Of a stretch of 32,635 nucleotides of DNA, positions 7,604 to 20,077 are shown in pieces. The position numbers and the translations under genes are program-made. Source of the stretch: Candidatus Zemynaea palustris. Its GTDB lineage: Bacteria; Vulcanimicrobiota; Vulcanimicrobiia; Vulcanimicrobiales; Vulcanimicrobiaceae. A model generated the notes under the pieces. It worked only from the letters and a program-made list of their open reading frames with translations. It ran no database searches and had not been told where the DNA came from. The stretch is taken from the NCBI GenBank assembly GCA_003134695.1, contig PLCB01000044.1, positions 50,900-83,534 of the forward strand, in the 5' to 3' direction. Position 1 is the stretch's first letter; each line of letters begins with the position of its first letter.

Positions 7604-8369
7604 CACGCTGCTGCTCGAGGCGCAGGAGGTCTCGAAATACTTTGGCGGCGTCCACGCCTGCGAGGGCGTCTCGCTCGGCGTCCGCGAGGGCACGATCCAT
7701 GCCGTCATCGGTCCAAACGGTGCCGGCAAGACGACCTTCTTCAACGCGCTCTCCGGCTTTTATTATCCCGACCGCGGGCGAGTCTTCTTCGACGGCGAGG
7801 AGATCACGCGCATGCCGAACTGGCGGCGCATCGAACGCGGGATGGGCCGCACGTTCCAGACGCCGAGCATCTTCCCCGAATTGACCGTCCACGACAACGT
7901 CGCGCTCGGCGTGCGCAGTAAAGCCGGCCTGGCCTTCCGTGCGCGGCCTCCGTCGGGCGAGCAACAGGCGGTGCTTGAGCGGCGCGTCGACGAATTGCTC
8001 GGCTTCGTGAACCTCGTACGGTTCAAAGAGCGGCCCGTCGCCGAACTCTCTCACGGTAGCCAGCGCCTCTGCGAGATCGCGATGAGCCTCTCGACCGAGC
8101 CACGTTTGGTGCTGCTCGACGAACCGATGGCCGGCCTCGCGGAAAGCGAGACCGAGCGCATCATTAGCGTGATTCGCGGCCTGCACGACCGGCTCGGGCT
8201 CACGGTTCTGTTCGTCGAGCACAACATGCGCGTCGTGCTCGGCCTCGCCGAAATGATCACCGTTCTCGACCGCGGCCGCATTCTCGCCGAAGGGACGCCG
8301 AGCGAGATCGCGGCCAACGAAGCGGTGCGCGACGCGTACCTCGGCAAGGAGGTGCTCGAGCGTGTCTAG
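7596..8369 (+). CDS. livG: branched-chain amino acid ABC ATPase (LivG-like)
   Basis: 257 residues from ATG 7596. Upstream in-frame starts would add a basic 18-residue extension inside livM and are less likely. Seen: Walker A GPNGAGKT (39-46), RTFQTPSIFP around the Q-loop (85-94), Walker B LVLLDEP (171-177) and H-loop VEHNM. The ABC signature reads LSHGSQ (151-156), not the LS(Y/G)GQQ usual in LivG; Ser in place of the first Gln is notable but the helix is intact. The TPSEIAANEAVRDAYLG C-terminus is typical of LivG. Known: one of the two ATPases that drive Liv import. The last 8 nt overlap livF. Confidence 0.92.
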   Translation: MGSTLLLEAQEVSKYFGGVHACEGVSLGVREGTIHAVIGPNGAGKTTFFNALSGFYYPDRGRVFFDGEEITRMPNWRRIERGMGRTFQTPSIFPELTVHDNVALGVRSKAGLAFRARPPSGEQQAVLERRVDELLGFVNLVRFKERPVAELSHGSQRLCEIAMSLSTEPRLVLLDEPMAGLAESETERIISVIRGLHDRLGLTVLFVEHNMRVVLGLAEMITVLDRGRILAEGTPSEIAANEAVRDAYLGKEVLERV

Positions 8370-9081
8370 CGCGTTGCTCGAGGTCGAAAACCTCAACACC
8401 AATTACGGAAAGATCTCCATCCTGCGCGACGTCTCGCTGACCGTCGGGGCCGGCGAAGTCGTCGCGCTCCTCGGACTCAACGGCGCCGGCAAGACGACGA
8501 CGCTCCGCAGCATCCTCGGGCTCACGCCGCCGCGTTCGGGCTCGATTCGCTTCGAGGGTCAAGAGGTCGCGGGGCGCGCACCCTATCAGATCGCGCGCCT
8601 CGGCGTCGGCTACGTCCCCGAAGGCCGGCGGATGTTCAAGGATCTCACGACGATCGAGAATCTTCAACTCGCCGAGAACGGTCGCGCCGGCGAGTGGACG
8701 ATCGCGCGCGTCCTCGAGCATCTGCCGAAACTCGCCGAGCTGAGGAATCGCAAGGCCGGCCGGCTTTCGGGCGGCGAGCAAGAGATGCTTGCGATCGGGC
8801 GAGCGCTCGTCTCCAATCCGCGCCTGCTGTTGGTGGACGAGCCGTCGCAGGGCCTCGGGCCGTTAATCGTCGAGGAGGTCTACAAGATCCTCGGCGAGCT
8901 CAAAGCGCACGGCGTCGCGATCTTGCTCGTCGAGCAGAACGCCCTCTTGGCGCTAAAAATTGCCGATCGCGCCTACGTCCTCGACTGCTGCAAGCTCGTC
9001 TACTCGGGGAGCGCCGCCGATCTGCGGGCCGACCGCGAACGCGTCCGCACGCTGATGGGTCTCACCGAAGTTACTGTCTAG
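8362..9081 (+). CDS. livF: branched-chain amino acid ABC ATPase (LivF-like)
   Basis: 239 residues, GTG start overlapping livG by 8 nt, so coupled. Seen: Walker A GLNGAGKT (38-45), VPEGRRMFKDLTTIENL after the Q-loop region, canonical ABC signature LSGGEQ (135-140), Walker B LLLVDEP (155-161) and VEQN in the H-loop position. Gln replaces the usual His here, as is common in LivF proteins. The VPEGR motif separates LivF from LivG. Known: partner ATPase of LivG. It completes the five-gene importer. A 10-bp inverted repeat begins in its last codons (9063-9072 with 9092-9101) and may help end transcription. Confidence 0.93.
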   Translation: MSSALLEVENLNTNYGKISILRDVSLTVGAGEVVALLGLNGAGKTTTLRSILGLTPPRSGSIRFEGQEVAGRAPYQIARLGVGYVPEGRRMFKDLTTIENLQLAENGRAGEWTIARVLEHLPKLAELRNRKAGRLSGGEQEMLAIGRALVSNPRLLLVDEPSQGLGPLIVEEVYKILGELKAHGVAILLVEQNALLALKIADRAYVLDCCKLVYSGSAADLRADRERVRTLMGLTEVTV

Positions 9082-9101
9082 CTGAGGCGTGAACTTCGGT
9101 G
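9063..9101 (+). terminator. inverted repeat at the end of livF
   Basis: CACCGAAGTT at 9063-9072 pairs perfectly with AACTTCGGTG at 9092-9101 across a 19-nt loop containing the livF stop codon. It is followed by CGATTTTGG, a short T-run. Stem and position suit a transcript end or mRNA 3' structure, but the loop is long and the T-run short, so this is only a candidate terminator. Confidence 0.4.
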
Positions 9102-9156
9102 CGATTTTGGGGTAGAAATTTAGGGTCGGTGGGATTTTGGGGGTAGAAATTTGGGT
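9097..9156. repeat. two tandem 30-bp repeats
   Basis: Units at 9097-9126 and 9127-9156 are nearly identical. Both start CGGTG and share a core: GATTTTGGGGTAGAAATTT in the first and the same with one extra G in the second. Differences are one substitution and compensating one-base indels. The A/T-rich cores stand out from the GC-rich surroundings. They lie between livF and the ribosome site of the small membrane protein gene. They could be operator half-sites about three helical turns apart or part of a dispersed intergenic repeat; the sequence does not decide. Confidence 0.8.
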
Positions 9157-9167
9157 ATGGGAGGGCC

Positions 9168-9323
9168 ATGCAGCTGATTTGGACGCTCATCGTCATCCTG
9201 GTCGTCTTGTGGCTCGTCGGCTTCCTCGCGCACGTCGGGGGTGGCCTCATCCACTTGATCCTGGTCATCGCGCTCATCTTGCTTGTCTTCAACCTCTTGA
9301 CGGGTCGCGGCGCAAAAGTCTAG
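9168..9323 (+). CDS. small membrane protein, Lmo0937 family
   Basis: 51 residues. Seen: MQLIWTLIVILVVLWLVGFL, then AHVGGGLIHLILVIALILLV, then a short polar tail, GRGAKV. This gives two membrane helices separated by a glycine turn. Length, the GFLAHVGGGLIH turn and the tail match the Lmo0937/DUF5670-type mini membrane proteins, often stress-linked but of unknown function. A GGGAGGG purine run just upstream can serve as ribosome site, though spacing to the ATG is short. The stop overlaps that of the convergent PLP gene within a CTAG palindrome. Confidence 0.78.
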   Translation: MQLIWTLIVILVVLWLVGFLAHVGGGLIHLILVIALILLVFNLLTGRGAKV

Positions 9324-10288
9324 GCGATAATCGCCGCGTAGACGGCGGGATCCACGTTGCCGCCGCTGAGGACTACGCCGACGCGGCGGCCGCCTGCGCC
9401 GGCTTTGCCGGCAAGCAAGGCGGCGAGCGCCGAAGCGCCGCTCGGCTCGACGACGAGTTTGAGCCGCTCGAACGCAAAGCGCATCGCGGCGCGAATTTCA
9501 TCGTCGCTCACCGTGAAAAAGCCGGCGCACAATCGTTTCACGATCGGAAACGTCAACTCGCCGGGTGACGTCGTCTGCTGCCCGTCGGCGATCGTCTTCG
9601 GCACGGCGATTTCGATGCGCCGGCCTGCAGCGAACGAACGCGCGAAGTCATCGCCGGCTTCAGGCTCGACGCCGTAGAGTCCGATCCCCGGGCGGAGCGC
9701 GGTCGCGGCGAGCGCGCAGCCGGACAACAATCCACCGCCGCCGACCGGGACCAGCAGCATGTCGAGATCGGGGACGTCTTGGAGCAGCTCGAGCGCGACG
9801 GTCCCCTGACCGGCGATGATCTCCGGATCGTCGTACGGCGGGACGAGCGTCGCCCCGCGTTCGCGCGCGATTCCGCCGGCGATTTCGGCCCGGTTGTGCG
9901 TCGCGCGCTCGTAGAAGATGACGTCGGCGCCATATTCGCGCGTCGCCGCGACCTTTGCCGCGGGCGCGTCGCTCGGCATGACGATCGCCGCCGGCACGCC
10001 CAACAACTTCGCGGCCAGCGCGACGCCTTGCGCGTGATTCCCGCTCGAATACGCCACGACGCCGCCGGGGCGTTCTTCCGGCGTCAACTGTGCGATACGA
10101 TTATACGCTCCGCGAAACTTGAACGCGCCCATGCGCTGCAGGTTTTCGCACTTGAGAAACGCATGTGTCCCGGCCCGCGCGTCGAGCGTCCGCGACGTGA
10201 CGACGGGTGTGCGGTGCGCGACGCCGCGCAAGCGCGCGGCGGCCGCTTCGACGCCGGCGAAGGTGACCTCGCGCGACGCGATGGTCAC
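9320..10288 (-). CDS. PLP-dependent ammonia-lyase (serine/threonine dehydratase, threo-3-hydroxyaspartate type)
   Basis: 322 residues, GTG start overlapping the upstream stop by 4 nt (GTGA). Seen: Schiff-base lysine in FKFRGAYN (Lys57), substrate loop SSGNHAQG (81-88), phosphate-binding GGGG (183-186), then GVEPEAGDDFARSF and IADGQQTTSPGELTFP, and near the end SGGNVD. Known: this is fold-type II. The GVEPEAG and ADG-Q-T stretches are typical of the serine racemase/threo-3-hydroxyaspartate ammonia-lyase group and lack the C-terminal ACT domain of biosynthetic IlvA. It therefore probably has a catabolic role, deaminating a hydroxy-amino acid to a keto acid plus ammonia. A paralogue lies two genes upstream in the same operon. 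Exact substrate uncertain. Confidence 0.88.
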   Translation of the reverse strand: MTIASREVTFAGVEAAAARLRGVAHRTPVVTSRTLDARAGTHAFLKCENLQRMGAFKFRGAYNRIAQLTPEERPGGVVAYSSGNHAQGVALAAKLLGVPAAIVMPSDAPAAKVAATREYGADVIFYERATHNRAEIAGGIARERGATLVPPYDDPEIIAGQGTVALELLQDVPDLDMLLVPVGGGGLLSGCALAATALRPGIGLYGVEPEAGDDFARSFAAGRRIEIAVPKTIADGQQTTSPGELTFPIVKRLCAGFFTVSDDEIRAAMRFAFERLKLVVEPSGASALAALLAGKAGAGGRRVGVVLSGGNVDPAVYAAIIA

Positions 10289-10785
10289 CGGCTGAAATTC
10301 GCGCTCGGCGCGTGCACGTGGAAGGTGACGATCTTACCGTCGGATCCGGTCGTCATGTCCTCTTCCCACGTTCCCTTCGAAAACTCGGCCTGGAAATGAT
10401 GATAGCCGGCCGCTGAATTCTGGGGCGTATCCTCTTTGATCCGCTTGAGCTTGCCCAGTTCGTTGAGATCTTGCGAGAGCCGCCCGACAAGCATGCGATC
10501 CTCGAGTTTGGCTTTGTTGGCGGGGACAAACACAGCCTCGACCGGATGCATGTCGTTGTTGACGATCGCCGCGGTCACGCGCGTCGCAAGTCGTTCGTTC
10601 GGGTTGGCGCGCGGCATCAAGATCGCCCACAGAACCAAGACGATCACGATGAGCGTCGCCGGCGCGAGGCGGCTCCGAAGCGGATCCGGCCTGGGGACGT
10701 TCGCCGGCGGCTGCAGCGGCCCAGCCGGCACCGGCGGCGATGCCGACCCGGGCTGCGCGGGCACATTCGATTGATCTGAAGACAT
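10285..10785 (-). CDS. single-pass membrane protein of unknown function
   Basis: 166 residues. Seen: a Pro/Ser-rich cytoplasmic N-terminus (residues 1-38), one membrane helix at about 40-58 (LAPATLIVIVLVLWAILM), then a roughly 108-residue extracytoplasmic domain with NERLATRVTAAIVNNDM near its start and KIVTFHVHAP at its end. I recognise no family; the outer domain resembles NTF2/DUF4878-like small folds only loosely. The start is well supported by GGGAGG about 6 nt upstream of the ATG. It sits between two PLP lyase paralogues, 11 nt after one and overlapping the other by 4 nt, so all three are co-transcribed. Role unknown. Confidence 0.72.
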   Translation of the reverse strand: MSSDQSNVPAQPGSASPPVPAGPLQPPANVPRPDPLRSRLAPATLIVIVLVLWAILMPRANPNERLATRVTAAIVNNDMHPVEAVFVPANKAKLEDRMLVGRLSQDLNELGKLKRIKEDTPQNSAAGYHHFQAEFSKGTWEEDMTTGSDGKIVTFHVHAPSANFSR

Positions 10786-10796
10786 GGCGACCTCCC

Positions 10797-11774
10797 TTAC
10801 CGTTTCACTTGCGGAGAGTTTCGGCGTTCATCGAGCTCACCCAGCACGGCGCGCAGTTTGCTCACGTCGATGTTGCCGCCTGAAACCACGCACACAACCT
10901 TGCCGCTCCCTGCTTCGCCCGAAAGCGCGCACGCTACCGAACACGCGCCCGCGCCCTCGGCGATGATGCGGTTGCGCTCGGCCAATAGCCCCAGCGCCGC
11001 GGCGACGTCTTCCACGCTCGCGACCAGCGCACCGTCAATCAGCCCTTGCGCGCGTTCGAGCATTTGCGGAAAGACGGTCTTGCTGCCGATGCCGTCCACG
11101 AACGACGGCTTATAGTCGACCACCTGCGGCGATCCCGCGGCGAGAGACGCGGCGAGTGGCGCGCCCGTCGCGACCTCGGCGGCGAAGAGCCGGCAACTGG
11201 GCTTGAGCGCTCGCACCCCCACGGCGATCCCACACGCCAACCCGCCGCCGCCCCACGGAATCACGATCGCCTCCACATCCGGCAAGTCTTCCAAAATTTC
11301 GAGCGCAATGGTCCCGTTGCCGGCCATGACATACGGATCGTCAAAGGCGTGGATGAACGTCGCGTCAACGCCCGGGTACGCGCGCTCCGCAAACGTCTGC
11401 CACCACCGCTCGAACGGGACTTTGATCACGCGCGCGCCGAGCCGCTCGATGGCTTTGACTTTTGTCTCCGGCGCCGTGTCCGGCGCAACGACAGTGCAGG
11501 GGATGCCCAGCTCGCGCGCGCGCCATGCTACTCCCTGCGCCATGTTGCCCGCCGACGCTGTGAGCACTCCGCGCGCCAGTTGCTCCGGCGGCATGTGCGC
11601 CATCGCGTTCGTCGCGCCTCGAATCTTGAACGAGCCGATCGGTTGAAGGTTTTCGAGTTTGAGATAAATCTCTACGGGCGCGTCGAACACGTTGAGCCGC
11701 ACCAGCGGCGTGCGGATGGCGGAGCCGACGATACTTCGGCGGGCTTGCTGGATTTCGTCGAGCGTCGGTAACAT
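10797..11774 (-). CDS. PLP-dependent threonine dehydratase-like enzyme (second paralogue)
   Basis: 325 residues. Seen: lysine motif SFKIRGATN (Lys50), substrate loop SAGNMAQGVA (74-83), glycine loop WGGGGLACG, and SGGNID near the C-terminus. The usual SxGNH is SAGNM here: Met replaces the His conserved in classical threonine dehydratases, so substrate or mechanism may differ from the downstream paralogue. No ACT domain. Known: fold-type II PLP enzymes of this size deaminate Ser/Thr or hydroxyaspartate, or act on other beta-substituted amino acids. It starts 3 nt after the stop of the preceding small protein gene. Family sure, reaction unsure. Confidence 0.85.
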   Translation of the reverse strand: MLPTLDEIQQARRSIVGSAIRTPLVRLNVFDAPVEIYLKLENLQPIGSFKIRGATNAMAHMPPEQLARGVLTASAGNMAQGVAWRARELGIPCTVVAPDTAPETKVKAIERLGARVIKVPFERWWQTFAERAYPGVDATFIHAFDDPYVMAGNGTIALEILEDLPDVEAIVIPWGGGGLACGIAVGVRALKPSCRLFAAEVATGAPLAASLAAGSPQVVDYKPSFVDGIGSKTVFPQMLERAQGLIDGALVASVEDVAAALGLLAERNRIIAEGAGACSVACALSGEAGSGKVVCVVSGGNIDVSKLRAVLGELDERRNSPQVKR

Positions 11775-13425: not shown

Positions 13426-13458
13426 TATCTCGGCTCTATCTCAGGTTTATCTCAGGAC
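13426..13458 (-). promoter_or_regulatory. three 11-bp direct repeats upstream of GH130
   Basis: Plus-strand units TATCTCGGCTC, TATCTCAGGTT and TATCTCAGGAC follow one another with exact 11-bp period; ATCTC begins at 13427, 13438 and 13449. On the coding strand they read CCTGAGATA-type. The outermost unit overlaps the stop codon of the upstream lipoprotein gene. An 11-bp period of direct repeats is typical of OmpR/PhoB-type regulator sites. The last unit is only about 9 nt from the GH130 ATG, so an RNA-level role or chance is also possible. Confidence 0.45.
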
Positions 13459-13914
13459 CGTCGACGCGATCGTCACGCCGTCGGGCGTCACGACGTCGAT
13501 CACCGAGCCGGTTCGGTAGACGGAGTTCGGGACGATCCAAAGCGTATAGGTGTGATACTCAGCGGTTGGTTCCCCACCATCGGCCGGCGCCCGTTCGAAG
13601 GCAACGATCCGAACGCGCTGTTCGTTCGCGCGAATCGAATCGATCACCTGACGCCAGCCGGTATGTGCATGGGGCCCCATGACCAGAATCACACCGAACT
13701 CGTGATTGAAACGAACCGGCGCGTGCAAACCAAACGCGTCCAAGTCTCGCCGGCTGCGGACGATGGCGACTTGGTTTCCGCCCGGCACGATTGTGTCGCC
13801 GGTTTGATACCTGTTGACCCGCACCTCGCGGCAGCCCGCCAGCACCACCGCCAGGGCGGCGGCGAGCAGGACGGTCCCTAAGCCGCGCCGGTGTGGGACC
13901 TCGCTGATCCCCAT
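13447..13914 (-). CDS. lipoprotein of unknown function
   Basis: 155 residues. Seen: a signal peptide with hydrophobic stretch TVLLAAALAVVLAGC and a lipobox LAGC (Cys28), so it is lipid-anchored outside the membrane. The mature part is beta-rich and ends in YHTYTLWIVPNSVYRTGSVIDV. The stretch from GVILVMGPHAHTGWRQV to the end faintly recalls the PrcB C-terminal domain of protease complexes, but I would not assign it. First gene of the six-gene minus-strand run; 29 nt separate it from GH130. Its start is close to the divergent two-cysteine gene. Confidence 0.72.
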   Translation of the reverse strand: MGISEVPHRRGLGTVLLAAALAVVLAGCREVRVNRYQTGDTIVPGGNQVAIVRSRRDLDAFGLHAPVRFNHEFGVILVMGPHAHTGWRQVIDSIRANEQRVRIVAFERAPADGGEPTAEYHTYTLWIVPNSVYRTGSVIDVVTPDGVTIASTVLR

Positions 13915-13994
13915 TATCCAGCACTTTCGAGGAAGGCCGGCAGCAGCCTAGCGAAGCCCAAGCCTCCCACAAACGCGGATTCGGAGACCCGGTC

Positions 13995-14708
13995 CTGATC
14001 GTTGCATCTCTCCTGGCAACCGCCCTCATCGGTGCGGCCAGCCCAGCGCCAACCGCGACCCCCGTGCTCAAGCAAATCGGCCGCACGACCCACTCGAACG
14101 CGGTCTGTGGCAACTTGGTCGTCCATGCCAACAGCGCGATCGACTCGGCGCTGCACGACGACATCCTCGTCGGTCGCGTCGTCGCGCGTTTACGTGACAT
14201 CGATCTCGAGAACAACGCGCTTTCGAAGCGCGGCGGACTCTCCGAACTCAACGGTCTGGCCGGCGAGCTGAACGACGAGTCGCTGCGCGGCGAGTCCGAG
14301 GTCAAACGTTTGCGAGAAGCCGCCGAACGGAAAGGCGGCCCCGGATTGAACTCCGATCTGCGTACGTTTTCGGATGCGCTCGGCGGGGCGCTCGGACGGC
14401 AACACCGGATCGGCATCGACTTGAGCAATTTCCTCGCATACCTCGACTATCGCGACATGCGAGAGATGTCGCGACCGACCGACTCGCCGCAACGGCGCGG
14501 CGTCGGAACCGATCCGTTTGGCTCGAACGGCTTCCCGAGTGCGTCGGCACCGACGCCGCAGCCCGGGACACCTTACTCGATCGCGGGGACGCCAAACCGC
14601 ATGGCGGTCGCGGCAGCCGTCGACTTCGCGGCGCGCAACGCCGATGTCCAGGGCGACGAAGCGCGAGCCGCCGAGCACAGCGAAGCGGCGGTCTCCGGAT
14701 GCACGTGA
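13995..14708 (+). CDS. secreted two-cysteine helical protein, paralogue A
   Basis: Start uncertain. The frame is open from 13908 with no ATG, GTG or TTG before the GTG at 14064. Yet codons 13995-14063 encode a clear hydrophobic signal segment, LIVASLLATALIGAASPAP. A GGAG at 13983 lies 8 nt before CTG at 13995, so a CTG start is possible; a base error or unusual start further up is the alternative, since HKRG upstream looks like a signal n-region. Mature part: helical, charged, with IGR-x7-C-x5-HA-x6-SAL, a middle Pro/Ser linker, and a C-terminal Cys two residues from the end. The same pattern occurs in the gene at 19286-20077. Family and function unknown to me; possibly a disulfide joins the two cysteines. 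Confidence 0.65.
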   Translation: MIVASLLATALIGAASPAPTATPVLKQIGRTTHSNAVCGNLVVHANSAIDSALHDDILVGRVVARLRDIDLENNALSKRGGLSELNGLAGELNDESLRGESEVKRLREAAERKGGPGLNSDLRTFSDALGGALGRQHRIGIDLSNFLAYLDYRDMREMSRPTDSPQRRGVGTDPFGSNGFPSASAPTPQPGTPYSIAGTPNRMAVAAAVDFAARNADVQGDEARAAEHSEAAVSGCT

Positions 14709-14720
14709 ACCCCCGCGTCT

Positions 14721-15395
14721 TTACCTCTCCGGGCACGCAGCCGCAAAACTGCGCGTCAACTTGTCGATGTTGGTAATCGCGCTCCCGACGACGATCGCGC
14801 TCGCACCCGCCGCAAAGGCAGCACCGGCCTGCTCGGGCGTTACGATCCCGCCCTCGCAAACCGCGAACGGATGGAGCGCGGCGAGCGCCCGCAGTAGCGC
14901 CAGGGCCGGAAGCGCGCAATCCCCCGTTTCGGACGTGTAGCCGGCGAGCGTCGTCGCGACCAGGTCGGCGCCGGCTTCCGCGGCTCGGCGCCCATCGTCC
15001 GCCGTCGCGCAGTCGGCCAGCGTGAGCCGTCCCCGCAAGCGCGCGGCTGCAACCAAGTCCGCCACCGTCGCGCCGCCGCGCCTTGTCCGCGGGGTCGCAT
15101 CGAATGCGATGACGTCGGCGCCAGCGCCGGCGAGTGCCTCGACTTCTTCCACCGTCGTCGTGATGTAGGGCGCCCGCGCCGAACGAACGCCTTTGAGCAG
15201 CCCGAGGATCGGCACGTCGACGGCGGCCCGCACCGCGCGAATGCGCTCAAGGCCCTCGATCCGCACGGCCGCCGCGCCGTTTTGTACGACGCAGCGCGCC
15301 AATAGCGCGATCGTCGCCGGCTCGCCGATCACGGAATCGTCCTCCGCTTGCACCGAGACGATCAGGCGGCCGCGCAAGCGTTCGAGATCGATCAC
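14721..15395 (-). CDS. nanE: N-acetylmannosamine-6-phosphate 2-epimerase (NanE-like)
   Basis: 224 residues. Start chosen as GTG at 15395, because it overlaps the kinase stop as GTGA and matches the family's N-terminus ([12 protein letters not shown]). Seen: TIM-barrel strands with [16 protein letters not shown] (catalytic Lys), [44 protein letters not shown] (catalytic Glu region) and the phosphate-binding [12 protein letters not shown]. Known: NanE converts ManNAc-6-phosphate to GlcNAc-6-phosphate in sialic acid and amino sugar use. Here it follows a sugar kinase, which could supply a 6-phosphate. No NanA, NagA or NagB is in the window. Last gene of the overlapping operon. Confidence 0.88.
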
Positions 15396-16330
15396 GCTTG
15401 CGTCTCGACGAGCGATCCGACGTCGAGCGCCGCATCGCGATACGCCAGCCGCAACGCGCCGACGACCGGATCGTATCTCGGCTTCACGATCGTCGCGGAA
15501 CGCTCGAGCGCGCGCATCGCCCACTTCCAATGTTCGTGAAACTCACTGTCGGAGAACATCCCGCCGAGCGGCGCGATGGGCAATTCGCGCGCGGCGCCGA
15601 GTCTATGATGCACGACGTGGACCAGCCGGGCCAGCGCATCGACGGCGCGCCGGCGCAGCTCGAGGGCGCCGCGCTCGCCCTCGCGCGCGGCCTGCAGCAC
15701 GACCGAGGCAAACCCGGCGAGCGCGCTCCGTGAAATCTCTCCGTGCGCGACGGCGTGCTGCAACGCTCGCAGCGACGCGACGCCGAAGTAGTCGAGTGCA
15801 CCCGCTCGCAAACCCGACGGGGAGCCGAAATCCTCGTCGCGCATCGCCCCGGCGATCGCCTCGCGCGCGATCCAAAACGCACTTCCTTCATCTCCGAAGA
15901 GATAACCCCAGCCGCCGGCCCGTGCGCGGTTGCCGTCGACGTCGATGCCGAACGCGACGCTGCCGGTCCCGGCGACGAGCGCGATCCCCGCCGAGCCGTC
16001 GAATGCGCCGGCGTGTGCGATCTCGGTGTCATGGACGACGCGAAAACGCTCGGACGACGCCGCCGGCGCCGGGACCAGCGATTCAGCCTCGTCGTAACCG
16101 CTCAGGCCGGCGACGATCGCCGCGAACCTCGTCTCCGCGGGGAGATTCGCGTGCGCCAGCGCGGCGCTCAGAACGTGGTCGAGGACCGCCGCTTGACGAG
16201 GCGAATCGCGGGATTCGCCGATCAGATCGGCCGGCGGCCCGCTCGCGCGTGCGACCACGATGCCGCGCTCGTCGCCGATCGCGCACACCGTCCCACTCTG
16301 CCCACCATCGACGCCGGCGCAGTATCTCAC
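15392..16330 (-). CDS. N-acetylglucosamine kinase-like, BadF/BcrA ATPase family
   Basis: 312 residues, GTG start overlapping the upstream stop as GTGA. Seen: N-terminal phosphate loop GVDGGQSGT (6-14), [12 protein letters not shown] with the catalytic-type Asp, then [30 protein letters not shown], and LGGMFSD in the C-terminal lobe. These are the ASKHA motifs of the mammalian-NAGK/BadF group. Known: members phosphorylate GlcNAc or related sugars at O6, while others are ATP-driven activators of dehydratases. The absence of Fe-S cysteines and the adjacent NanE favour the sugar kinase. Substrate may be GlcNAc, ManNAc or another hexosamine (inference). Confidence 0.86.
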
Positions 16331-16650
16331 GGCCGCAACGCGCGAACGGCGCGCTCGAAGAGGGCGGCATCGAGTCCCGTGTGGGCCATCGCGTAGGCAT
16401 GCGCTGCGCGTTCGTCGCGCACGGCGAAACGCGCGTGGTGAAGTTCGTGCCAGATCGCGAACGCGACGAAGCGAGCCGCGAAGGCGGCGCCACGCGCCGC
16501 GCGCAAGTCGGCGACCACACGGCTATCGATGGCGATGCTGCGCAGCACAGGATCGTACTCGGCGAGAATCGGGCGATGCCACGCGCCGGTCGCTACGATG
16601 CGGACGGCGACGCCGGCAGCGCCGGCTTCGCGCAGCGCGAGCGCGAGCAT
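16327..16650 (-). CDS. small HELHH protein, possible mini-zincin
   Basis: 107 residues. Its start overlaps the FAD oxidoreductase stop by 1 nt (TGATG) and its stop overlaps the kinase start (GTGA), so the frame is held by real genes on both sides. Seen: helix [19 protein letters not shown] with a HExxH motif, followed about ten residues later by [15 protein letters not shown], whose Glu could be the third metal ligand. The N-terminus has two beta-like segments ([19 protein letters not shown]). Known: HExxH plus a downstream Glu is the gluzincin zinc site. At this length it may be a minimal zincin, a non-proteolytic metal protein or a regulator. No signal peptide. No named family recognised. 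Confidence 0.72.
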
Positions 16651-18008
16651 CAGCGCGCCGCGACCGGCCGGCTTAGCGCACCGTCACGCGCCAGCCGGGC
16701 ACGCAACTCGTGCGTGTCGACCGCGCGCGGCTGGATCTTGCGCTCGGTGGCGATCGCCGCAGCCGTCCCGGCCGCTTGACCGAGCGTCATCACCGTCGGT
16801 GTCAGGCGCGTCGAGGCGAGCGCTTCGTGGGTCGTCGAGATGCAGCGGCCCGCGACGAGCAACCCGTCGATGCTCGCCGGCACCAGACACCGGTATGGAA
16901 TCTCGTACGCCGCGCCGGGCGGAAGGCGCTGCGTCGTCGTTCCGCTTCCCGAGGGATTGTGGATGTCGATCGGATACGCGCTGCGCGCGACCGCGTCGTC
17001 GAAGGAGTGCGCTTGCAACACGTCGTCGCGCGTCAACGTGTAGACGCCGACGATACGGCGCGACTCGCGGATCCCGACCTGAGTCGCCGTCGCGGAGAGC
17101 CGGCAATTCGCAAAACCCGGAACGTCACGCTTGAAGAACGCGAACAACTCCATGACTTGCGCGCGCGACTCGACCTCGGCGCGCGTCAGATCGTCCGGAT
17201 CGAGTGGATCGATGTCGACGACGCGCGTCATGTTGACGGTTACCTCGTCGGGATAGGGCGTCGCGAAAAACGACACCAGTTCGCGTTGAACGCTGACGTC
17301 GCCGCGCGCCCTGGCTCGTTCCCAGAGCGTGTAGAACCCGGCGACCGCCGTCAGCCGTTCGGGCGTTCGCTGCTCAACCGGAAGGCTCGTGCGCATCTCT
17401 TCGGGGTGCTCGCGCAAATAACGCGCCGTCTCGGCGAGATCGACGTGTGAAAGACGGAAGATCAAGGTCGCGGGCTGCACGCGTCCCTTGGCGTCGCCCT
17501 GCTGCACCGCGACGCCGGCGGAGGCCGCCACGTACGCGTCGGCGGTCGCGTCGATCGTCACCTTGGCGCGCTTTTCGCGCAAACCGCCAACCGTCGCGAA
17601 GCGCGCCCCGGCGATTGCGCCGGCGTCGTCGTGCAGCGCGTCGAGAAAGTAGGCGTGCAGGAGTAAATCGACGCGCGCCTCGCGCATCATCTCGAACAGC
17701 AACGCCTTGTGAATCTCCGGATCGAACGGCGTGATCGTCGCGACGTAATCGGAAGCGTCGTGGATGTGCCCGGGAGACGCTCCGCGCTCGGTCAGACGCT
17801 CGACGATCTCTTGCGCGATGCCGCCGACGATGCGCTCCTCGCCCGAATGGAAGGTCATCCACGGCCCGACCATCGCGGCGGTCGCCGTGCCGCCGAGAAA
17901 TCCGTAGCGCTCGACGAGCAGCGTGCTGGCGCCGTTGCGTGCCGCCGCAAGCGCCGCCGCGCATCCGGCATTTCCGCCGCCGACGACCAGCACGTCGTGA
18001 GATTTCAC
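16650..18008 (-). CDS. FAD-dependent oxidoreductase (PF12831 type)
   Basis: 452 residues from GTG at 18008. The open frame extends further upstream, but that part overlaps the divergent methyltransferase and shows no family sequence. Seen: DVLVVGGGNAGCAAALAAARNG at the N-terminus (FAD site; Gly10, Gly12 and Gly15), VERYGFLGGTATAAMVG, DATADAYVA, and C-terminal LLVAGRCISTTHEALASTR and QAAGTAAAIA. These are the hallmarks of the FAD_oxidored family common in polysaccharide-use loci. Known: biochemical roles are largely undefined; some relate to sugar or polysaccharide oxidation. It heads a four-gene operon with mini-zincin, kinase and NanE, suggesting oxidation of an amino sugar derivative (inference). 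Confidence 0.85.
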   Translation of the reverse strand: MKSHDVLVVGGGNAGCAAALAAARNGASTLLVERYGFLGGTATAAMVGPWMTFHSGEERIVGGIAQEIVERLTERGASPGHIHDASDYVATITPFDPEIHKALLFEMMREARVDLLLHAYFLDALHDDAGAIAGARFATVGGLREKRAKVTIDATADAYVAASAGVAVQQGDAKGRVQPATLIFRLSHVDLAETARYLREHPEEMRTSLPVEQRTPERLTAVAGFYTLWERARARGDVSVQRELVSFFATPYPDEVTVNMTRVVDIDPLDPDDLTRAEVESRAQVMELFAFFKRDVPGFANCRLSATATQVGIRESRRIVGVYTLTRDDVLQAHSFDDAVARSAYPIDIHNPSGSGTTTQRLPPGAAYEIPYRCLVPASIDGLLVAGRCISTTHEALASTRLTPTVMTLGQAAGTAAAIATERKIQPRAVDTHELRARLARDGALSRPVAAR

Positions 18009-18047
18009 GCGACAGGCTTTCGCCGTACGGCGCGCCAACGCCCGCGC

Positions 18048-18755
18048 ATGTTCACCGAGACCGCCGCCTTCTACGACGCGATCTATGCCGCGCGCGGCAA
18101 GGATTACGTACGCGAAGCCGACGCGGTGGTCGCACATCTTCGGCGCGTCCGGCCCGACGCGACCAGCCTGCTCGACGTCGGGTGTGGAACCGGCGCGCAC
18201 CTGGCGCGCTTCCAAGAGAACAATCTCGCCTGTCGTGGGATCGACAAGGACGTCAAGATGGTCGCGCTCGCCCGCGCGCGCTGCCCCGAGATCGAGATCG
18301 AGCCTGGTGACATGCTCGATTTCGTCTTACCCGAGCGTTTCGACGCGGTGACCTGTCTTTTCGGGGCGGCGGCGTATGCGCGCACGCCCGACCGGCTCGG
18401 GAGGGCGATCGCGAACATGTCCCAGCATCTCGGCGAACGCGGCGTTCTATTCGTCGAGCCGTTTATTGAACCCGACGCTTTTGAAGTCGGGAATCTGCAC
18501 TCGATCTTCGTCGACGAGCCGGACCTGAAGATCGCGCGGATGAACGTTTCGAAGCGCGTCGGCTCGATCGCCATCATCGACTTCCACTACTTGATCGCGA
18601 CCAAGCGAAGCGGCGTCGAGCGCCGCTTCGAACGGCACGAACTCGGGTTGTTTTCTGAAAACGATTACCACGAGGCGTTTCGCGCCGCCGGACTCAGCTT
18701 CGAGGCGCTCGACGAGCCGGCGTTTCCCCGCGGTTTCTATCTGGGTTCGAAGTAG
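18048..18755 (+). CDS. SAM-dependent methyltransferase, DesVI/TylM1-like
   Basis: 235 residues from ATG 18048. Seen: YDAIYAARGKDYVREAD at the N-terminus, SAM motif I LLDVGCGTG (41-49), GDMLDF, FDAVTCLFGAAAYARTPDRL, GVLFVEPFIEPDAF and FHYLIATKRSGVERRFERHEL. The combination of Y-D-x-I-Y-x-GKDY, FDAVTC-F and VEP-x5-F matches the dTDP-aminosugar N,N-dimethyltransferases (DesVI, TylM1). Known: those methylate a sugar amino group. No dTDP-sugar genes are in the window, so the substrate could be another amine. It is divergent from the FAD oxidoreductase with only 39 nt between starts. The frame is open upstream but no better start is seen. Stop is 1 nt from the convergent lipoprotein stop. Confidence 0.83.
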   Translation: MFTETAAFYDAIYAARGKDYVREADAVVAHLRRVRPDATSLLDVGCGTGAHLARFQENNLACRGIDKDVKMVALARARCPEIEIEPGDMLDFVLPERFDAVTCLFGAAAYARTPDRLGRAIANMSQHLGERGVLFVEPFIEPDAFEVGNLHSIFVDEPDLKIARMNVSKRVGSIAIIDFHYLIATKRSGVERRFERHELGLFSENDYHEAFRAAGLSFEALDEPAFPRGFYLGSK

Positions 18756-18756
18756 G

Positions 18757-19239
18757 CTACTTCCTCAAACAGAGGGAGCGGATCGCGGCCTCGCCGGCGG
18801 GATCGGCTGCGACGTTCGCCGGGTACGAGTAGAGTGCGATGTAAAGATCTTTGTTCCAATTGGTGAGAACGATTTGAGTCTGCGAGCGCTGACCGTTCTT
18901 GCTGGCCTTCGCCTCCATATACTCGGCATCGTGGTTGCCGCAAATCTTGATCCGCGACCGCTTCTCCACGACGCCGACGTTGCCGGAATACCCATTGCTG
19001 CCGATTTCCTTCGAAATGTCTTGATCGAGTTTGACGTCGGCTTTCCCGGACACATCCATCAAGACGACGACCTCATTGCTCTTACCGCCTTTGATCCAGA
19101 GCTTGAAGCCGAACATGCTCGGCGTCGACGTCCAGCCTGTCGGCGCCTTGAAGTCGAGACTATCGGTCGGATTCTTGCCGCAGCCGGCCGCAAACGGGAC
19201 GACGAGAGCGAGCGCGCACAGCGCGAAGCGACGCATCAT
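18757..19239 (-). CDS. lipoprotein of unknown function
   Basis: 160 residues. Tandem ATG-ATG at 19239/19236 follows AGAGGAG with 4 or 7 nt spacing, the clearest ribosome site on this side. Seen: signal peptide MMRRFALCALALVVPFAAGC with lipobox AAGC (Cys20). The mature part starts GKNPTDSLDFKAPTGW, and later has CGNHDAEYMEAKA and a C-terminal RSLCLRK. Two further cysteines may pair. It resembles the many 'photosystem reaction/DUF1795-like' surface domains (APTGW...) only in outline, so I assign no family. It lies 46 nt after the two-cysteine paralogue B, on the same strand, so they are likely co-transcribed. Confidence 0.72.
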   Translation of the reverse strand: MMRRFALCALALVVPFAAGCGKNPTDSLDFKAPTGWTSTPSMFGFKLWIKGGKSNEVVVLMDVSGKADVKLDQDISKEIGSNGYSGNVGVVEKRSRIKICGNHDAEYMEAKASKNGQRSQTQIVLTNWNKDLYIALYSYPANVAADPAGEAAIRSLCLRK

Positions 19240-19285
19240 TGTACTCCTCTTACCCCCTGGGTTTCGCGTGTGTTTCAAAAAGCAC

Positions 19286-20077
19286 CTAACAGCCGCCGAG
19301 GATCAGCGCGAGTTTCCCGTCGTCGGCGGCGCGCCGCAGGTCGCGACCGACCAAGTCGTCGCCGGGCATCGCATCGAAGAGGTCGTTGCGCAGTTCGAAA
19401 GCGCGATCGTCTGCCTGAGTGTTGAGGATATTGCCCGTCGCCATCGACGTCGGCGAGAGCGAGCCGCGCTTCGCAAAGGCGTTGTTGACGCTCTCGCTCC
19501 GGTCGCCCGGCAGCGTCACGTTCGTATAGACCGGCTGCTCCGCGATGATCGCGAAGCTGCCCGCAAGTTTGCGCGCCAGCTCCATCTGGCGGCCCTTGGC
19601 GCCGTTGAGCGCGTTGGCGAACTCCAAGAGCGCTTCGTGCCGTGCGGGGTCGGTCTCGAGCGATTTCAACTCTTCGAGTTCGGCCCTCCCCGCGAGCGAG
19701 AGATCGGCAAGCCGGTTGAGATCTTTCTCGAGCTGTTTCAACGACTTGTGTTTGTTCAACTCGTCGCCGAGTTTGGCCGACCGGAAATCGGCGAGCGTCG
19801 CGAGCAGCGACCGCTCGAAATCGAGCGCGCTGCTCACACCGAGCGAAGCGTGCGCCAGAAACGCCTTACAGAACGCGGTCCGCGCGCGGACGCGGCCGAT
19901 CTCCCGCAGCGGTTCGATGACGCTCGCCCCGAACGTCGTGGGAACTGGGCTCGGCGAAGCGCCCGCGGCCGCACCGCTCGGCATCCGCCCGAGCGCGAGC
20001 AGCAACGAAATCGCCGTCACCGTCGTGAAGGCGGGAGCGAAGCCTCGATCGATCCGCACGTCGGTAAGCTTCGCCAT
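19286..20077 (-). CDS. secreted two-cysteine helical protein, paralogue B
   Basis: 263 residues. Seen: a signal segment, FTTVTAISLLLALG, then Ala/Ser/Pro-rich sequence. A long helical domain follows, with REIGRVRARTAFCKAFLAHA (Cys70, His76), SAL at 83-85, and heptad-like LNKHKSLKQLEKDLNRLADL. The C-terminus is DLRRAADDGKLALILGGC, ending in Cys263. Only two cysteines occur. Core spacing IGR-x7-C-x5-HA-x6-SAL and the terminal RAA...GC are shared with the gene at 13995-14708, so they are paralogues. Function unknown. Likely exported, perhaps with a disulfide joining both ends of the helical bundle. It is upstream of a lipoprotein gene and divergent from the radical SAM gene. Confidence 0.75.
   Translation of the reverse strand: MAKLTDVRIDRGFAPAFTTVTAISLLLALGRMPSGAAAGASPSPVPTTFGASVIEPLREIGRVRARTAFCKAFLAHASLGVSSALDFERSLLATLADFRSAKLGDELNKHKSLKQLEKDLNRLADLSLAGRAELEELKSLETDPARHEALLEFANALNGAKGRQMELARKLAGSFAIIAEQPVYTNVTLPGDRSESVNNAFAKRGSLSPTSMATGNILNTQADDRAFELRNDLFDAMPGDDLVGRDLRRAADDGKLALILGGC

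Follow-up and report, generated by a model that had tools for sequence, protein, structure and literature searches.

Two genes of the window, by which we mean the whole stretch of 32,635 nucleotides analysed here, were originally predicted to encode secreted paralogues that share a helical body and a two-cysteine signature. We asked whether the two proteins are related, to which family they belong and what an exported protein with two cysteines might do. Both genes are present in the window, and the features to which we refer are the following:

13995..14708, + strand: P0001, clade-A member of the family; signal segment, Pro-rich linker and helical body; Cys 38 and Cys 236 of 237 residues
19286..20077, − strand: P0003, clade-D member; ATG start, 263 aa; Cys 70 and Cys 263
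13447..13914, − strand: P0004, lipoprotein with an LAGC lipobox, no family assigned; divergent from P0001
18757..19239, − strand: P0006, lipoprotein; follows P0003 directly on this strand
13983..13986, + strand: GGAG, likely ribosome-binding site of the P0001 CTG start, found by inspection

Homology of P0001 and P0003

The pattern IGR-x7-C-x5-HA-x6-SAL matches exactly in both proteins, and C38/C236 and C70/C263 are their only cysteines. Judged from the sequences, P0001 and P0003 are homologous and their likeness is not due to chance, because BLASTP aligned them with E = 7e-12, the Smith-Waterman score of the mature parts was 114 compared to a mean of 35.6 and a maximum of 59 for shuffled sequences (n = 1000, z = 13.4), and each protein retrieved the other in a search of their own genome (E ~1e-8).

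No ATG, GTG or TTG was found ahead of the P0001 signal segment. Because the CTG at 13995 lies 8 nt past the GGAG and is aligned with the GTG starts of the orthologues L037 and L122, the start originally assigned to P0001 is very likely correct on sequence grounds. With this apparent CTG start, where orthologues have GTG, standard ORF callers begin past the signal segment and the export signal of P0001 is hidden.

An unnamed exported family with two invariant cysteines

A first search with P0003 alone against 60 related genomes found members in 27 of them. The profile made from those members showed the family to be present in 99 of 149 Eremiobacterota genomes, distributed over three family-level groups of one class, and no members were listed for the other classes among these 149 genomes. 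The single profile retrieved both P0001 and P0003 and thus did not split the pair into unrelated families. A scan of genome contigs with P0003 returned just two close relatives, both from Eremiobacterota, whose names serve to assign the genomes above to this phylum; plasmids searched with P0001 contained none.

Profile searches over the loci collected yielded 109 family frames, 104 of which are complete. The mature part holds exactly two cysteines, in the same alignment columns, in all 104 full-length members, P0001 and P0003 being assigned to this Eremiobacterial two-cysteine bundle family by the profile and by exactly two cysteines at these places. The five exceptions to the two-cysteine rule are contig-edge, frameshifted or fragmentary frames. 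The first cysteine marks where helix 1 begins; the second was found 0-4 residues from the C-terminus in the 41 members that were checked singly. There are few other near-invariant positions (Leu, Ile, Gln, Glu, Pro and Ala). The exact spacing seen in the pair does not extend to the family, in which IGR and Cys are separated by x6 or x7 and His is found at Cys+6 in 89 members. As far as the alignment goes, the invariant feature of the family is the two cysteines and not the motif spacing. A very divergent member on a very long branch (L102, 1436-2404) has kept the signal, the Pro-rich linker and both cysteines. Members were also considered as bacterial lipoproteins, and this was rejected: the first mature cysteine stands well past the hydrophobic segment, after the Pro-rich linker and an I-G-R-like motif, and there is no lipobox.

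Searches of Pfam, NCBIfam, PHROGs and PADLOC gave scattered weak matches only and no family match, and sequence searches of the PDB gave coiled-coil or designed-helix matches only, so that the pair can still be placed in no known family. We conclude that this is a genuine, hitherto unnamed, apparently lineage-specific exported family, the structural idea itself being familiar. Most genomes of a single class of this little-studied phylum carry it, usually as 1-4 copies, and its strict two-cysteine architecture is not covered by any library searched.

Paralogue history

The family tree has four main clades, with some deep branches of moderate support. The window's genome carries one gene of each clade, namely P0001 (A), C45:121352 (B), C45:213273 (C) and P0003 (D); the paralogy of the two genes in the window stood, and their number in the genome has to be raised to four. 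Because P0001 and P0003 fall into separate tree groups, each with its own orthologues, their proximity in the window is not the result of tandem duplication, and this origin is ruled out by the age and difference of the two clades. They are old paralogues that were brought less than 5 kb apart by rearrangement. Two family copies lie close together in the loci L032, L033, L040, L127 and L158, and recent local duplication does occur there.

Conserved neighbourhoods

Clade-A loci typically show the order divergent lipoprotein, family gene, ctaA, ctaB and MFS, in which ctaA and ctaB were assigned by Pfam COX15-CtaA and UbiA. The lipoprotein is of the P0004 type and is divergently paired with the clade-A gene in about 40 loci of many genera; its family has a mean column identity of 66% over 18 members and no Pfam match above the cut-off. 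A PrcB-like identity for P0004 was considered and dropped for want of Pfam support. P0001 has kept the neighbours typical of clade A on its upstream side (P0004, GH130 and PALP genes), and downstream of it the operon carrying P0003 replaces the usual ctaA-ctaB-MFS. Two PALP-family (pyridoxal-phosphate) enzymes are encoded at 9320-10288 and 10797-11774 on the − strand of the window, with a short lipoprotein-like gene of no assigned family between them.

The strongest positional hint to a function comes from about 40 loci in which ctaA-ctaB follow the clade-A gene immediately on the same strand, most of the 41 gaps measured being 48-67 bp long. Clade-A proteins might accordingly help CtaA and CtaB as accessory factors, either in inserting haem A or in assembling cytochrome oxidase, and their cysteines might carry copper, haem or electrons. 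We regard this as improbable. The link is broken in the window's own genome, where P0001 stays with the lipoprotein and the cta block, rearranged to ctaB-MFS-ctaA, is on a different contig with no family gene beside it (G000:C12:121000-137000; locus L162, ~8005-10951). Many genomes without clade A possess ctaA, and together with the separate cta block this rules out an obligate partnership with CtaA. The link is also absent from the other clades, in which paralogues with the same cysteines adjoin dnaG-rpoD, transport or sugar genes. Moreover, conservation covers the whole region, RF3 and PALP genes included, so that the gene order may simply be inherited. Apart from the two cysteines, no motif for binding metal or haem was seen, and Pfam and NCBIfam gave no match to a known cytochrome oxidase assembly factor family.

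In clade B, dnaG and rpoD precede the family gene, and clade C is found with a TonB-receptor-like gene and other envelope or transport genes. The clade-D gene of the window's genome is accompanied by the P0006 lipoprotein, an FAD oxidoreductase, a BadF-type ATPase and NanE; in L050, too, the P0003 orthologue is followed by the P0006 gene. P0001 and P0003 do both adjoin a lipoprotein gene, as had been noted, but this carries little meaning: P0004 and P0006 are unrelated and belong to different conserved neighbourhoods, so they do not point to a shared system. The paralogues lie in different operons, and the lack of a partner gene shared by every clade speaks for a protein that is complete in itself.

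Predicted fold and probable disulfide

AlphaFold2 with family alignments predicted a four-helix bundle for both P0001 and P0003, the linker between helices 3 and 4 being uncertain. The P0001 model (pLDDT 82.6, pTM 0.73) has helices at 57-89, 96-134, 137-179 and 221-253 and cysteines at 59 and 257 in model numbering, and the P0003 model shows the same arrangement (pLDDT 79.0). Together with the family profile, these bundles bear out the original description of secreted paralogues with a helical body. Helices 1 and 4 of P0001 are both 33 residues long; one cysteine is the third residue of helix 1, and the other lies four residues past helix 4. From the topology of the models, both cysteines would lie at the same end of an up-down-up-down bundle.

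Because the cysteines of both models are found where helix 1 begins and where helix 4 ends, the disulfide originally suggested to join the ends of the helical domain is plausible, and we consider it likely, with good confidence, that the invariant cysteines form an intramolecular N-to-C bond. If they instead linked different chains, head-to-tail oligomers would be formed in the envelope; the two cysteines do lie at or close to the termini of the folded part, the C-terminal cysteine being outside the last helix. The predicted fold brings both chain termini to one end of the bundle, however, so that an intramolecular bond would be geometrically favoured, and we hold oligomers to be quite improbable. 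Alternatively, the protein could be a periplasmic redox sensor whose bundle is opened by reversible redox switching of the pair, a role with which the restriction of invariance to two cysteines and a few structural positions would agree. Such a switch seems highly improbable to us, given that there is no CxxC-like spacing and that no adjacent thioredoxin-like partner was seen in the conserved neighbourhoods identified.

An even number of cysteines was found in 76% of exported compared to 49% of soluble proteins in the loci of these genomes; counted by cluster, of which there are few, the values are 66% for exported, 98% for lipoprotein and 48% for soluble clusters. A bias of exported proteins towards even cysteine numbers is the usual sign of oxidative folding. 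The window's contig encodes a short homologue of the VKOR-family disulfide oxidases with a CAFC motif (G000:C4:18436-18783; locus L163, 5413-5805). This homologue is short, and the DsbB and Thioredoxin_4 (DsbA-like) profiles had no match in the window's genome, so that an oxidising route through it would be tentative.

Proposed role

The envelope of a cultured member of the phylum is Gram-negative and consists of an inner membrane, thin peptidoglycan and an outer membrane (PMC9758169). Family proteins would be exported to the periplasm via the Sec-type signal segment, which would then be cleaved. The mature protein would consist of a flexible Pro/Ala/Ser/Thr-rich linker of variable length followed by an antiparallel four-helix bundle, in which a long variable loop would connect helices 3 and 4 and a disulfide from the cysteine with which helix 1 begins to the C-terminal cysteine would close the open end. 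The protein might then act as a small periplasmic binding module or adaptor. Taken as a whole, an exported, non-enzymatic bundle with an N-to-C disulfide staple, probably binding a ligand or partner, is the reading that we favour with some reservation.

On sequence grounds, a non-enzymatic role is likely. A binding or adaptor role is favoured over catalysis because there are no conserved polar active-site residues, the linkers are variable and the contexts are varied; as a specific assignment, it is tentative. The small size, helical body and export of these proteins, the scarcity of enzyme-like conserved residues and the several paralogues per genome would also suit an envelope-protecting chaperone or stress protein of the Spy/CpxP type, which the disulfide would stabilise. 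We rate this as rather unlikely since Pfam, run over 39 members, found no Spy/CpxP (LTXXQ) family, just as it found no TarH/4HB_MCP.

Comparison with known systems

Foldseek returned nothing at E <= 0.001, either against the PDB or against viral models. In VIA, both models were aligned through their last residue to antiparallel bundles. The P0001 model matched the Tar sensor domain (Z 11.3) and the P0003 model that of PcaY_PP (Z 13.2, rmsd 2.2 over 130 residues), values of Z 11-13 against chemoreceptor sensor bundles being within the range given for unrelated helical bundles; as a model-based result, the likeness of P0003 to these domains is suggestive. De novo designed single-chain four-helix bundles (8gl3 and 6egc) have the same topology and reached Z 13.0-13.4 with P0001 (6egc 13.0), and being artificial they show only that the arrangement is generic. 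Spy/CpxP and LTXXQ proteins are likewise small, exported and helical, but differ in that the family has no Pfam match to them.

Like the chemoreceptor domains (Tar, Tsr and PcaY_PP), family proteins would be antiparallel four-helix bundles outside the cytoplasm whose two ends lie at one pole, and they would resemble sensor bundles released from the membrane anchors. As a speculation to which we give a low probability, the family members could be related to chemoreceptor sensor bundles or mimic them in a soluble form closed by the disulfide, and each paralogue could bind ligands in the periplasm as the partner of its own membrane or envelope system in the class Eremiobacteria. Unlike the chemoreceptors, to which there is no sequence match, family members lack a second membrane helix, a HAMP domain and a signalling domain: the chain stops 0-4 residues past the second cysteine, and the N-to-C cysteine pair would sit at the end which in receptors is fixed by the membrane.
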